A DNA stretch of 64,000 nucleotides from Oscillospiraceae bacterium (GTDB taxonomy: Bacteria; Bacillota; Clostridia; Oscillospirales; CAG-272): positions 28,829 to 92,828 of the forward strand of contig SVSX01000002.1 in NCBI GenBank assembly GCA_015064085.1, read 5' to 3'. Both the position numbers and the translations under genes were made by a program. Every line of letters starts with the position of its first letter. Within the stretch, counting starts at the first letter, position 1. Positions 22,177 through 27,569 of this stretch are shown here, piece by piece. The notes beneath the pieces are model-generated. The model worked only from the letters and a program-made list of their open reading frames with translations, was not told the origin of the DNA and did no database searches.

Positions 22177-24420
22177 ATGAATACCAATGCAAAATGGATA
22201 AAGACAGTTCCGAGCATAGGCGAGACCTCGCCCGAGTTCAGAAAAAGCTTTGCCGCCGAGAAGAAGATCAAAGCCGCGGAGCTAACGGTAACCTCTCTTG
22301 GCGCGTACGTTGCCTACATAAACGGTAAGAGAGTGGGAGATGCCTTTCTTACCCCCGGCTGGACCTCTTACACAACAAGAGTTCAGTCTCAGACCTACGA
22401 CGTGACCGATATGCTTGACAGAGCCAACCTTATCTCTGTCATCTGCGGAAAGGGCTGGATGTTCAGCGCCCTCGGATCACCCCCAAGAGCCGCTGTCGAC
22501 TGCTCGGGCATAGCTATCTGCGCAGCTCTTGAGATCCTATATGAGGACGGAACGGGTGAGACTGTTCTCAGCGACCGAAGCTGGGAGGTCTGGTCCTCGG
22601 GTATTCTTTACTCCGATCACTATAACGGCGAGATCATCGACTTTACGGTAAAGGGAGAGCTCCTCGGATACGCAATTGAGGACAACGGGGGAAAGCCCGA
22701 GATCGTTCCTCAGGTCGGTGAGTTTATAAAGGAGAGGGAGCGAGTTTTTCCCTCGGAGCTCATAATAACTCCTAAGGGTGAGACGGTCATCGATTTCGGT
22801 CAGAATCTCGCGGGATACGTTGAGATATCGGTGAAGGGCAAAAAGGGAGACAAGGTGGTCATCAGCCACGCCGAGGTCCTTGATAAGGACGGCAATTTCT
22901 ATACCGAAAACCTTCGTGCCGCAGACGCGCTTATGAGATATACCCTCAGCGGCGAGGAGCCTGTGCTGAAGCCGATGTTTACCTTCCAGGGCTTCAGATA
23001 TATAAGAATTGACGAGTTTCCCTCGGAGGTCGATCTTTCCGACTTTACCGCTGTGGCGGTCTATTCCGATATGAAGCGTACCTCTCGCTTTGTCTGTGGA
23101 AACGATAAGATCAACAGACTTTACAACAATACTATATGGGGACAGAGAAGTAACTTTGTGGACGTTCCCACAGACTGCCCTCAGAGAGACGAGCGACTTG
23201 GCTGGACGGGAGACGCCGAGGTCTTCTGTAAGACGGCGGCTATCAACTACGACGCCGAGAAATTCTTCTCAAAGTGGCTTGGCGACGTGGCTATAGAGCA
23301 GACCCCCGAGGGCGGAGTCAAGGGCGTAGTTCCCACCGTCAACGTAAACGGCGGAAGAGTGTCGGCGGCTTGGGGCGACGTTGCGACGGTAGCCCCCTGG
23401 GAGATATATCTCGCGTACGGTGACAAGGAGCTGCTCAGAAGAAACTACCCGATGATGAAGAAATGGGTAGAATATATGCATAACACGGGTGTTGAGGAAT
23501 ATCTCTGGCTCGGCGGCAATCACTACGGAGATTGGCTTGCTATGGACGCGGGCTACGGTATCTATAAGGGAGCAACCCAGACCGACTTTATAGCGAGTGC
23601 GTATTTCGCTTATTCCACCTCTCTTGTCATAAGAGCGGGAAGAGTGCTCGGCGAGGACGTCTCCTATTTTGAGGACCTTTACACTAAGGTGAGAGCAAAA
23701 TTCAGAGAGTGCTTTATGAAGGACGGAATGCCCGTGGCGCTCAGAGAATATAAGGACTCTCCTCTCGATAACGGAACAGACAGAGAGCCGAGAAAGATCA
23801 AGGACGTTACTCAGACGGCTATCATTCTTATCCTCCATTTCGGTCTTTGCGAGGAGGAGGAAAAGCCTATGCTTCTTAAGAAGCTCGCGGAGCTTATTGC
23901 CGACTTCGACGGAAGAATGACCACGGGATTCGTTGGAACTCCCTATATCCTCCACGCTCTCTCTGACAACGGAAGAGCAGACCTTGCTTATGATCTGCTT
24001 CTTCAGGAGAAGAACCCCTCATGGCTCTTCTCGGTCAATATGGGCGCGACCACTATCTGGGAGCATTGGGACAGCATAAACGAGGAAGGCAAGATGTGGA
24101 GTACCGCAATGAACTCCTTCAACCACTATGCTTACGGCTCGGTGTTTGATTGGATATTCGGCGATATGATGGGTATCAAGGTCCTTGACGAGGGCGCGGG
24201 CTATGAGAAGATAGAGATTGCTCCTATTCCCGAGAAGAGAATAGGCTTTGCAGAGGCTGAGATCGAAACAAGATGCGGAAAGCTTGGCGTAAGCTGGAGA
24301 TACGTTGGAGATAAGGTAAGATACGAGATCTGCGTACCCTGTGGCTCATCTGCAACGCTTAAGATCAAGGGACTTCCCGAGAAGACCTTGCTTGGCGGAT
24401 GTTATACAATAATTAAGTAA
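22177..24420 (+). CDS. GH78 alpha-L-rhamnosidase (paralog A)
   Basis: AYINGKRVGDAFLTPGWTSY, VIDFGQNLAGYV, VPTDCPQRDERLGWTGDAEVF, NPSWLFSVNMGATTIWEHWDS. Confidence 0.95.
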   Translation: MNTNAKWIKTVPSIGETSPEFRKSFAAEKKIKAAELTVTSLGAYVAYINGKRVGDAFLTPGWTSYTTRVQSQTYDVTDMLDRANLISVICGKGWMFSALGSPPRAAVDCSGIAICAALEILYEDGTGETVLSDRSWEVWSSGILYSDHYNGEIIDFTVKGELLGYAIEDNGGKPEIVPQVGEFIKERERVFPSELIITPKGETVIDFGQNLAGYVEISVKGKKGDKVVISHAEVLDKDGNFYTENLRAADALMRYTLSGEEPVLKPMFTFQGFRYIRIDEFPSEVDLSDFTAVAVYSDMKRTSRFVCGNDKINRLYNNTIWGQRSNFVDVPTDCPQRDERLGWTGDAEVFCKTAAINYDAEKFFSKWLGDVAIEQTPEGGVKGVVPTVNVNGGRVSAAWGDVATVAPWEIYLAYGDKELLRRNYPMMKKWVEYMHNTGVEEYLWLGGNHYGDWLAMDAGYGIYKGATQTDFIASAYFAYSTSLVIRAGRVLGEDVSYFEDLYTKVRAKFRECFMKDGMPVALREYKDSPLDNGTDREPRKIKDVTQTAIILILHFGLCEEEEKPMLLKKLAELIADFDGRMTTGFVGTPYILHALSDNGRADLAYDLLLQEKNPSWLFSVNMGATTIWEHWDSINEEGKMWSTAMNSFNHYAYGSVFDWIFGDMMGIKVLDEGAGYEKIEIAPIPEKRIGFAEAEIETRCGKLGVSWRYVGDKVRYEICVPCGSSATLKIKGLPEKTLLGGCYTIIK

Positions 24421-24433
24421 GGAGGTATTGGAT

Positions 24434-26680
24434 ATGAATAAAAATGCAAAATGGATAAGACCCACCATTGGAATAGGTGAGGTATGCCCGGATTTCAGAA
24501 CCGCGTTTGCGGTTGATAAAAAGGTGGTAAAGGCAGAGGCTTTTGTCAGCGCGAGGGGCGTTTACGACCTCTTTATAAACGGAAAAAAGGTCGGAGACGG
24601 CTTTATGGCGCCGGGTTGGACCTCAAACTTTGCGAGAGTGCAGTATCAGAGATATGATGTAACCGAGCTTATTGAGAGCGAGAACACTGTCTCTATCATC
24701 GCGGGTAAGGGCTGGGCACTCGGAAATATCGGATATCACCGCAGACCTGCCGTGGATTGCTCGATGATCGCCGTTATAGCAAGTATAGAGCTTGAATTTG
24801 AGGACGGAACAAAGCAGGTAGTCGCAACCGACAAAAGCTGGGACGTTTATAAGTCCAAGATACTCTTCTCGGAGCTCTACGACGGCGAGACGGTCGACGC
24901 GGGAGCTGAGTGCGAGTTTTACGGAAAGGCATCCTTTGACACAGACTCAAAGCCCGCGCTTGTTGAGCAGGTTGGAGAATTTATAACCGAGAGGGAGACG
25001 GTATTCGCTTCGGAGTACATCGTCACCCCCAAGGGCGAGAGAGTCATAGATTTCGGTCAGAATATGGCGGGATACGTTAAGGTCAGGATCAAGGCGAACA
25101 AGGGCGACAGGATAGTTATAACCCACGCCGAGGTGCTTGACAAGGAAGGCAATTTCTATAACGCAAACCTCCGTGTGGCGGAAAACAGAATGACATATAT
25201 ATGCAGCGGAGAAGAGGACGTATTCGCCCCCAGATTTTCCTTCCAGGGCTTCAGATATATCAGACTTGACGAGTATCCGAAGGAAGAGGTTGATATTTCC
25301 GACTTTACGGCAGTTGCTGTTTATTCCGATATGAAGAGGACATCCTCCTTCGTTTGCGGATATGACAAGCTGAACAGACTCTACAGCAACACCGTCTGGG
25401 GTCAGAGAGGAAACTTTATAGATATCCCCACAGACTGTCCCCAGAGAAATGAGCGACTTGGCTGGACGGGCGACGCTGAGGTCTTCTGCCGTACCGCAGC
25501 TATAAACTACAACGTCAAGAGGTTCTTCAACAAGTGGCTTGGAGATATGAAGCTCGAGCAGCTTCCCGACGGAGCTGTTTTCGGAATAGTTCCGGGTATC
25601 ACCGACTGCGGAAATAAGATATCAGCCGCTTGGGCAGACGCGGCGGCGGTATGTCCCTGGGAGATGTATCTCGCATACGGCGACAAGGATATGCTGAGGG
25701 AATATTACCCTATGATGAAAAAATGGGTGGAATATATGCACGGAGCGGGAGATGAGGAATTCCTCTGGCTCGGCGGAAGCCACTACGGAGATTGGCTTGC
25801 GATGGATGCGGGCTACGGCACTTATATCGGAGCAACTCAGGTCGATCTTATAGCAAGTGCATTCTTCGCCTACTCCACCTCGCTGACAATAAAGGCGGGA
25901 AAGGCGCTCGGCGAGGATACACGTGAGCTTGAGGAGCTTTACAAGAACGTAAGAGCGAAATTCAGAGAATGCTTTATGCGTGACGGTATGCCGACCTATT
26001 ATTCCAAGGACGGAAAGCGTTCTGTCGCTTACAATAACGTGGTCACAGAGCAGTCCCGCAGCGGCGTAACACAGACCGCTATAGTGCTGATACTCAGATT
26101 CGGTCTTTGTGAGGACTGCGAAAGAGAAGGACTTGTCAATAAGCTTTGTGAGCTCATAGATGAAAACGACGGAAGAATGACAACGGGATTTGTGGGAACA
26201 CCTCATATCCTCCACGCCCTTTCCGATAACGGACGCGCGGATGTGGCATTCGACCTCCTCCTTCAGGAAAAGAACCCCTCCTGGCTCTTCTCTGTAAACA
26301 GAGGAGCGACCACCATCTGGGAGCACTGGGACAGCGTGAACGAGGAAGGCGATATGTGGAGCGACAAGATGAACTCCTTCAACCACTATGCCTACGGCGC
26401 TGTGTTTGACTGGATCTTCGGCGATATGATGGGAATAAAGATAGCCGAGGGCGGAGAGGGATACAAGAAGCTCGAAATATGCCCGATCCCCGAGAAGAGA
26501 ATAGGCTTTGCCGAGGCGTCATACGAGTCGGATCACGGAGAGATCTTCGTAAGCTGGAGATATATCGGCGACAAGGTCAGATATGAGGTAAGAATACCCG
26601 AGGGTATCGAGGCAACGCTGAAGATCGGCGGAATGTCCCCGAGAAAGCTCGGCGGCGGAGCATATACCGTAATAAAGTAA
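24434..26680 (+). CDS. GH78 alpha-L-rhamnosidase (paralog B)
   Basis: Same motifs as the upstream gene along its whole length; tandem paralog. Confidence 0.95.
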   Translation: MNKNAKWIRPTIGIGEVCPDFRTAFAVDKKVVKAEAFVSARGVYDLFINGKKVGDGFMAPGWTSNFARVQYQRYDVTELIESENTVSIIAGKGWALGNIGYHRRPAVDCSMIAVIASIELEFEDGTKQVVATDKSWDVYKSKILFSELYDGETVDAGAECEFYGKASFDTDSKPALVEQVGEFITERETVFASEYIVTPKGERVIDFGQNMAGYVKVRIKANKGDRIVITHAEVLDKEGNFYNANLRVAENRMTYICSGEEDVFAPRFSFQGFRYIRLDEYPKEEVDISDFTAVAVYSDMKRTSSFVCGYDKLNRLYSNTVWGQRGNFIDIPTDCPQRNERLGWTGDAEVFCRTAAINYNVKRFFNKWLGDMKLEQLPDGAVFGIVPGITDCGNKISAAWADAAAVCPWEMYLAYGDKDMLREYYPMMKKWVEYMHGAGDEEFLWLGGSHYGDWLAMDAGYGTYIGATQVDLIASAFFAYSTSLTIKAGKALGEDTRELEELYKNVRAKFRECFMRDGMPTYYSKDGKRSVAYNNVVTEQSRSGVTQTAIVLILRFGLCEDCEREGLVNKLCELIDENDGRMTTGFVGTPHILHALSDNGRADVAFDLLLQEKNPSWLFSVNRGATTIWEHWDSVNEEGDMWSDKMNSFNHYAYGAVFDWIFGDMMGIKIAEGGEGYKKLEICPIPEKRIGFAEASYESDHGEIFVSWRYIGDKVRYEVRIPEGIEATLKIGGMSPRKLGGGAYTVIK

Positions 26681-26699
26681 AGATAATACAATAAAAGAC

Positions 26700-26732
26700 A
26701 GAAACCGCAGGTTGATTTTCTGCGGTTTTTGT
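26700..26732 (+). terminator. Terminator after GH78 pair
   Basis: aaaccgcaggttgattttctgcggttttt. Confidence 0.85.
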
Positions 26733-26781
26733 GATATAATAAGGTTGCTGAAATTATTTATAAAACAAAGTTGAGATCGGC

Positions 26782-27020
26782 GATGAAATCCTGCTTCGCA
26801 GGGTTATAACAGACGGATTTGATTTCATCCAAGGCAACGCCTTGGATTTCATCTGAGTAAAACGAAGATTTCATCGTGGCATAGCCACGATTTCATTTAA
26901 CCAACAGAAAAAGAGAGGACATTTCGGCTATGAACCGCTTTGTTCTCTCTTTCTGCTTGTTATATGGGTTTGGGCTTAGCCCATTTGCGTTTGACTAGTC
27001 AAATGCGATGCTTTCATTTT
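26782..27020. repeat. Composite intergenic repeat: GATTTCATC boxes flanking small palindromes plus a ~50-nt hairpin
   Basis: gatgaaatc at 26782; gatttcat(c/t) at 26821, 26845, 26867, 26889; stem-loops at 26790-26802, 26829-26845, 26875-26889, 26905-26955, 26970-26982, 26990-27003. Confidence 0.85.
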
Positions 27021-27086
27021 TATCAAAGCGAAAATTCTCCGCTAAGGACACCACGCTATTCTGTCGGGGTTTTATCCTTAAGGGCA

Positions 27087-27569
27087 CTATGCTAAAAGCC
27101 TTTCTTCTATTTTTCTGAAGACCTCCGCGCGGTCCTCCGAGTCCATAATGGCGTAGATCACGTAATTCCCGAAGCGCCTGACCTCGGCTCTCTCAAGCTT
27201 CGGAAGCTCCTCGGGGGCATAGCTCCCTATAAAGGCAGACTTGCCCTCCCGCATTTCTGAGAGATAGCTTTCGGCAAGAGCCGAGAGCTCCTCGGGATCA
27301 GACCCCTCCGCAAGATGAAATATTCCAAGCTCGTCGATGTCATTCACCTCGGTGGAGTAGATTATCTCAAAATCGTCGCAGAGTGCCGCGCCGTCAAAGA
27401 AAAAGTCAAGGTAGTCCTCACCGTATCGGGAATAATCCTCCGTGTCGTCGCCTATGAGTGACTCCGAGAGCTCACGGCAGCTTATTCCGTCGGAATATTT
27501 TTTCGAGGAGCAGGAGGTAAGTGTCAGAGCGAGGAGAAGGGAAAGCAGTAAAATAATTGCTCTTTTCAT
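27087..27569 (-). CDS. DUF4358-type lipoprotein
   Basis: Lipobox LTSCSSKK; sequence pattern resembles DUF4358. Confidence 0.65.
   Translation of the reverse strand: MKRAIILLLSLLLALTLTSCSSKKYSDGISCRELSESLIGDDTEDYSRYGEDYLDFFFDGAALCDDFEIIYSTEVNDIDELGIFHLAEGSDPEELSALAESYLSEMREGKSAFIGSYAPEELPKLERAEVRRFGNYVIYAIMDSEDRAEVFRKIEERLLA

Follow-up and report, generated by a model that had tools for sequence, protein, structure and literature searches.

Between positions 26,782 and 27,059 of the window (the whole 64-kb stretch of Oscillospiraceae DNA analyzed here) lies an intergenic element in which copies of a short box, GATTTCATC or GATTTCATT, are separated by hairpins and followed by larger palindromes. 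This segment is probably a left-truncated, decayed, and non-autonomous copy of a ~360-bp mobile element, here called type B, which inserts into intrinsic-terminator hairpins at their apex and whose array core is of the kind found at the start of cassettes anchored at transfer RNA (tRNA) genes, here called type A. The window copy lacks the left end of the element and part of the left half-array, and is therefore considered a decayed, non-autonomous copy; the partner arm of the presumed host terminator is also missing. The features at the locus are as follows.

26782..26790, minus strand: inverted box GATGAAATC, leftover of the left, Gut-1-like half of the array, homologous to the left half of full copies, e.g., L010, L050, and L068
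26790..26802, plus strand: hairpin CCTGC-TTC-GCAGG, helix 1 of alignment A2 (described below), 96% of cells paired
26821..26829, plus strand: box 1, GATTTCATC
26829..26845, plus strand: hairpin CCAAGG..CCTTGG, helix 2 of A2, 100% of cells paired
26845..26853, plus strand: box 2, GATTTCATC
26853..26867, plus strand: hairpin CTGAGT-AAA-ACGAAG (CTGAGTAAAACGAAG) with a tandem G.A/A.G mismatch, helix 3 of A2, two pairs changed on both sides
26867..26875, plus strand: box 3, GATTTCATC
26875..26889, plus strand: hairpin CGTGGC-ATA-GCCACG, helix 4 of A2, two pairs changed on both sides
26889..26897, plus strand: box 4, GATTTCATT, end of the array; in tRNA-anchored relatives, the site just upstream of the promoter of a four-helix-bundle gene
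26905..26955, plus strand: 50-nt hairpin CAGAAAAAGAGAGGACA...TTGTTCTCTCTTTCTG, helices 5-6 of A2, a module repeated genus-wide, also with other box words
26971..26983, plus strand: hairpin TGGGC-TTA-GCCCA, kept in type-B copies
26990..27003, no strand assigned: palindrome TTTGACTAGTCAAA, kept in type-B copies
27037..27059, plus strand: right end of the mobile element, CTCCGCTAAGGACACCACGCTAT, an exact match to the right-end pattern, kept in type-B copies
27061..27073, no strand assigned: CTGTCGGGGTTTT, putative surviving arm of the presumed host terminator, judged by the terminator-apex geometry of intact copies
27087..27569, minus strand: lipoprotein-like gene with DUF4358, neighbor of the element

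Repeated boxes and compensatory arms

All the motifs named in the original prediction were located at the positions it gave, with GATTTCATC at 26782 (minus strand), 26821, 26845, and 26867, and GATTTCATT at 26889. Their density is far above chance. The 9-mer GATTTCATC occurs four times in the window, always inside this patch (1.16 expected; none of 100 shuffles reached four), and three spaced pairs of the form GATTTCAT-N8..24-GATTTCA were found against 0.01 expected, i.e., 300 times the chance level. When positions 26780-26960 were folded as a single DNA strand, the folding z-score was -5.1, and none of 200 shuffled sequences was equally stable. Two details of the prediction had to be revised. 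The boxes had been described as separated by hairpins only alternately, whereas the segment at 26853-26867 is also a hairpin, whose tandem G.A/A.G mismatch recurs in 37 of 212 related segments; and the element, previously ended at 27020, runs on to a right end at 27037-27059. The pattern of this right end has 19 sites in the genome, versus none for the reversed control.

The element is neither unique to this genome nor absent from relatives. The genome-wide search for spaced boxes that had been proposed recovered a second near-complete copy on another contig (C21) of the same genome plus several partial copies, some of which keep the right-hand module together with other box words (AATATCAC on C89, AATTCATG on C75). 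The spaced-box pattern also matches 35 of 98 relatives, with the reversed control near zero, and a scan of one genome per species yielded at least 115 loci, nearly all in herbivore-gut Clostridia or Oscillospiraceae assemblies. In these bacteria, close copies number about 11, and related arrays run into the hundreds. A plasmid search gave no match to the element, and of the ten matches among viral contigs only three (L165, L167, and L173) represent true arrays, and the remainder are simple repeats or coding tandem repeats.

It had been suggested that structure rather than sequence is selected, and the arms covary as this suggestion requires. Among 212 distinct inter-box segments, each of the five outer arm positions is paired in 70-92% of cases, compared with 37-48% with shuffled partners, and all four Watson-Crick pair types are present. 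In A2, an alignment of 11 window-type copies on the structure listed above, 97.3% of cells are paired and seven pairs have changed on both sides; neither value was reached in 500 shuffles, and sliding the partner by one base lowered pairing to 35-43%. The hairpin at 26875-26889, for instance, reads CGTTGC-CGC-GCAACG in the C21 copy, which is a compensatory change. Arm sequence drifts while structure is kept, and the boxes stay fixed.

Terminator tips and tRNA genes as insertion sites

The close copies (type B) have the right end CTCCGCTAAGGACACCACGCTAT in common, as well as a hairpin at the left end, e.g., AGCGTGATACTCTTAACGGAGTATCACGC. Intact copies are mostly 347-368 bp long, with some of 402-412 bp, and share their ends while the terminators around them differ. 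On either side they are bordered by one arm of an intrinsic terminator of the host, e.g., AAAAATCCCGAGGAA before and TTCCTCGGGATTTTTT after the element in L136, and likewise AAAAAGCACTCGCAAATA and TCTATTTGCGAGTGCTTTTTT in L308. Flank complementarity exceeded the 95% point of mismatched left/right pairings in 10 of 16 copies, and at least two of the low scorers have mis-paired ends. Short target duplications in these flanks are inseparable from the terminator arm sequence. The constant length, the common ends, and the insertion at different terminator hairpins support the proposal, made from the window alone, of a mobile element resembling miniature inverted-repeat transposable elements (MITEs). 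For the window copy, no strict pre-insertion site was found, relatives matching only pieces of the locus; it probably entered the terminator of the DUF4358 lipoprotein-like gene. Type-B-like ends in terminator loops were also observed in L194 (C47 of the window's own genome) and L195 (C23), which carry a NUDIX and an HD-domain gene.

Upstream of the element, the terminator 3' of the preceding gene (26693-26741; ACAGAAACCGCAGgttgattttCTGCGGTTTTTGT) is a dispersed repeat, the copies of which are mostly 88-96% identical and occur in many genus genomes. Directly upstream are two tandem related large genes, 22177-24420 and 24428-26680 (747 and 750 amino acids), an apparent duplication. We take these to be likely alpha-L-rhamnosidases.

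Most other GATTTCAT arrays (type A) begin directly after a tRNA or transfer-messenger RNA (tmRNA) gene. A same-strand tRNA gene lies just upstream of 44 of the 61 arrays with enough upstream sequence, and an opposite-strand one of none; the arrays without an adjoining tRNA gene are mostly later units of tandem rows. The tRNA gene is separated from the conserved TTTTCAACTAAATCC at the array start by 25-40 nt, a terminator-like hairpin, in nearly all cases. The order within a unit is the terminator-like hairpin, the array ending in GATTTCATT, a promoter, a ~115-codon PF05635 gene, and often a second open reading frame (ORF) overlapping by four bases. Consistently, when the loci were viewed from the protein side, a same-strand tRNA or tmRNA gene was found at 56 of 92 PF05635 genes and an opposite-strand one at none, and an adjacent ORF lies beside 76 of the 107 PF05635 genes in the fetched loci, many of which were taken from 146 family genomes.

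Up to nine PF05635 genes occur per genome, and tandem units carry different cargo, including GNAT, MazG, methyltransferase, histidine phosphatase, DUF218, DUF4279, and C_GCAxxG_C_C genes. Homologous cargo stands behind backbones of different lineages in two pairs (60% and 40% identity). In L114 (2290-2760) and L058 (4900-5200), every tandem cassette ends, ahead of the following terminator hairpin, in a conserved 150-nt stretch with GGGATAAGTGTACCC, which has no Rfam match. Integron cassettes and tRNA-targeting islands (e.g., tycheposons) are likewise tandem rows of units, each with a single variable cargo gene, at a fixed site and in one orientation. The layout is alike, whereas the units inspected here contain no integrase gene and each has a four-helix-bundle gene of its own or none; no integrase ORF was seen in the units read by eye, and no attC or IntI search was made.

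A four-helix-bundle protein and its box word

The protein linked to the arrays belongs to PF05635, the S23/Avd-type four-helix bundle. Its predicted structure (predicted local distance difference test score 94) matches the S23-family structures 2RLD (template modeling score 0.89) and 2GSC; the match to Avd of diversity-generating retroelements is weaker (4DWL, 8UB7; about 0.8). The 2RLD and 2GSC entries contain five chains each, and work listed among the references of PMC10053308 describes 2GSC as five four-helix bundles.

The box word differs by protein lineage (GATTTCAT, TATTTCA, ACTTCAC, ATATCAC, ACATCAT, and others). When 14 box words were mapped onto a tree of 66 proteins, 15 changes of word sufficed against a minimum of 13, while shuffled labels required 46.9 on average and none of 200 shuffles was as low. 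All box copies within an array, in both orientations, are switched together, whereas the hairpin arms between them differ, as predicted if the boxes are recognized by a co-evolving protein. This coupling supports the earlier idea of a protein-binding array and, as far as sequence comparison can tell, suggests that each protein binds its own box word.

If so, the array could simply be an operator, i.e., a multi-site region through which the protein regulates its own promoter, with mobility coming from something else. The last GATTTCAT box ends ~48 nt before the ATG, about the -35 position for a -10 element at ~27 nt, and the coupling of box word and protein lineage also fits regulation. However, an operator needs neither compensatory hairpin arms nor two oppositely oriented half-arrays, and the type-B copies, 0 of 13 of which contain the four-helix-bundle gene, have nothing to regulate, yet these gene-less copies still keep both array and covariation. 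Regulation as the sole role of the array is thus considered unlikely.

A second alternative is that the repeats are genes for a structured non-coding RNA, which would be the product that functions. The Rfam motif Gut-1 (RF01706), consisting of three hairpins parted by UGAAAU-type boxes, makes up the left half of the array, and the Gut-1 gathering score is passed by L077, L114, L060, L158, L087, and, with 50.9 bits, the C21 copy; many type-A copies reach it. The window copy, at 23.9 bits, is below the 50-bit cut-off; the family link holds for the element type and not for the window copy. Gut-1 covers only about 77 nt, to which the element adds an opposite second half-array and either the ends seen at terminator tips or a set composed of a terminator on the tRNA side, a protein gene, and cargo. 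Gut-1 has been reported as a likely non-coding RNA without a function (Weinberg 2010; PMC2864571), and G.T deviations exceed A.C deviations (32:13) in the element sense strand, which leaves room for a role as RNA. This ratio is, however, weaker than the 45:4 of tRNA stems used as a control, and box words switch wholesale between lineages along with the protein gene, neither of which favors an RNA product.

The surroundings of the array also bear on this question. A T-run lies between the tRNA gene and the array in 53 of 59 loci. Of the 59, 25 have an exact TATAAT ahead of the protein gene (3.7 expected), mostly 25-30 nt from the ATG, and in 34 of 35 cases the TATAAT follows the last box. Since a terminator precedes the array and a promoter follows its last box, the array lies outside both transcripts, and its place between the two points to a role at the DNA level. 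The structured RNA named in the original prediction thus touched a real Rfam motif, while its transcription is doubtful. We have little confidence that an RNA is the functional product, and the recognized form may possibly be single-stranded DNA or RNA.

A more far-reaching interpretation, which we hold tentatively and with somewhat less than even confidence, is that gut Clostridia harbor undescribed mobile cassettes behind tRNA genes, each of which would carry a private box word in a DNA hairpin array recognized only by its own S23/Avd-like protein. The units would tandemize and swap cargo while encoding no recombinase, and the arrays, including Gut-1 and the window element, would be DNA recognition sites and not RNAs. 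In the mechanism we propose, the four-helix-bundle protein, a pentamer in solved relatives, would recognize its box word repeated through the array, and the arms between the boxes would extrude as DNA hairpins. The protein-array complex may then mark the element for an enzyme that mobilizes it in trans, and the promoter-proximal box may also serve in self-regulation. The destinations are the 3' ends of tRNA or tmRNA genes for type-A cassettes and terminator tips for type-B copies. Of this mechanism, the binding, the extruded DNA as the recognized form, and the mobilization in trans are inferred.

Mobility and comparison with known elements

Mobility of the cassettes is supported by the tandem units with their different cargo and by duplications of the tRNA end at a few type-A sites. 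In L277, L290, and the tmRNA locus of the window's own genome (L049), 18-24 nt of the tRNA or tmRNA 3' end are duplicated, the duplicated end in L049 being CGACTCCCCTCGGGTCCACCAAAA. At the tmRNA site, the genus member G005 has a related cassette, and the remaining members inspected have different sequence downstream. Beside the duplicated tmRNA end lies a 60-nt sequence (CGGAGATCGACAAGCTGGCTTGTCAGGCGGAGAGCGCGGGAATATTCGCC..) that is dispersed genus-wide (including C16 and C59 of the own genome) and sometimes forms regular tandem rows (G012 C4, G009 C6).

The search for an enzyme gave mostly negative results. It had been proposed that a TnpA-like transposase associated with repetitive extragenic palindromic (REP) sequences, a RAYT, might be the partner, and movement of the window element by such a Y1 transposase, as a repeat of the REP or bacterial interspersed mosaic element (BIME) kind, would be a third alternative. 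RAYT-like proteins (HIH motif, 170-240 amino acids; L339-L367) are indeed common, being found in 25 of 30 genus genomes with up to 13 matches each, and are missed by Pfam Y1_Tnp in the genus members tested. Moreover, a 1.3-kb element with similar ends (CTCCGCTAAG-type) holds broken RAYT pieces together with a NUDIX gene, and C47 holds two broken RAYT gene starts. However, those intact RAYT genes of the genus that were inspected are located away from the arrays and do not have the element's ends; in the window's genome, Pfam Y1_Tnp gave no match and there are only RAYT-like fragments; and the box word follows the PF05635 lineage instead. No intact transposase-encoding partner with the element's ends was seen, and the broken RAYT of the 1.3-kb element is the sole link. 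We doubt this explanation. REP/BIME sequences and MITEs do resemble the present element in being short, non-autonomous, palindromic intergenic repeats with many copies. The arrays described here differ in being much longer, ordered, and built of two mirrored halves with box words coupled to a protein, and the autonomous-looking form is anchored at tRNA genes.

Least probable of all, at a level we regard as very low, is that the compensatory arm changes reflect template switching at quasi-palindromes in inert repeat DNA and not selection: for 3 of 24 arms, loops of both orientations are found on the same arm, as expected from template switching, but the preserved boxes, the coupling with protein lineage, the conserved tandem G.A mismatches, and the fixed position after tRNA genes are left unexplained by it.

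One parallel is provided by the intervening sequences (IVSs) of 23S rRNA genes, e.g., in Coxiella (PMC4990558), which encode the same protein family (S23/PF05635) and behave as selfish elements. The replacement of hairpin tips by IVSs (23S helices 9, 25, and 45) resembles the type-B insertion at terminator tips. IVSs differ in lying inside rRNA and in being removed by RNase III, whereas the elements described here are at tRNA 3' ends and terminators and have arrays, cargo, and 14 box words. The window element was not assigned to the IVSs, its copy being intergenic and those of relatives being at tRNA genes and terminators. Avd of diversity-generating retroelements has the same four-helix-bundle fold, but no reverse transcriptase is linked to the genes described here; such a retroelement was rejected, as was a reverse transcriptase acting in trans, there being no association with RVT_1 and no RVT_1 gene in the window's genome. 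A clustered regularly interspaced short palindromic repeat (CRISPR) array was likewise rejected, the spacers being hairpins with compensatory changes and the boxes being in both orientations; no cas-like genes were recognized by eye among the ORFs adjoining the element.

Several observations weigh against the mobile-element interpretation and the mechanism proposed for it. Besides the excess of G.T deviations and the type-B copies devoid of the protein gene, the cassettes inspected yielded neither a recombinase nor a transposase gene, and the presence of RVT_1 is unrelated to that of four-helix-bundle genes (21/88 versus 15/58). Of about 60 testable loci, few show a clear duplication of the tRNA end. 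The coupling of box word and protein could partly be plain co-inheritance, the two being physically linked. A single PF05635 gene was found in the window's genome (L049 1300-2050, on C70); it stands at the tmRNA 3' end and has another box type, with TTATCTTTTATC-type repeats of its own; because it lacks GATTTCATC boxes, it was rejected as the partner of the window array. Finally, the data are drawn mostly from metagenome assemblies, which are fragmented.

Searches of the open-licence literature found no account of these cassettes or of their combination of features, in which a hairpin array coded by its boxes is joined to an S23/Avd-like protein and to exchangeable cargo anchored at tRNA genes. 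The interest lies in the family more than in the worn window copy, which is itself a MITE-like element with a Gut-1-like array. If the cassette interpretation is true, it would give a role to the Rfam orphan Gut-1 and to the "four helix bundle protein" of PF05635/TIGR02436, which is among the commonest unexplained bacterial proteins. The family would offer at least 14 natural matched pairs of protein and DNA word as material for deciphering a recognition code. The geometry of insertion at terminator tips is shared with the 23S rRNA IVSs encoding the same protein family, the mobility of which has been debated since the 1990s. For uncultured gut bacteria, these elements would represent a cassette-like exchange of genes at tRNA genes.
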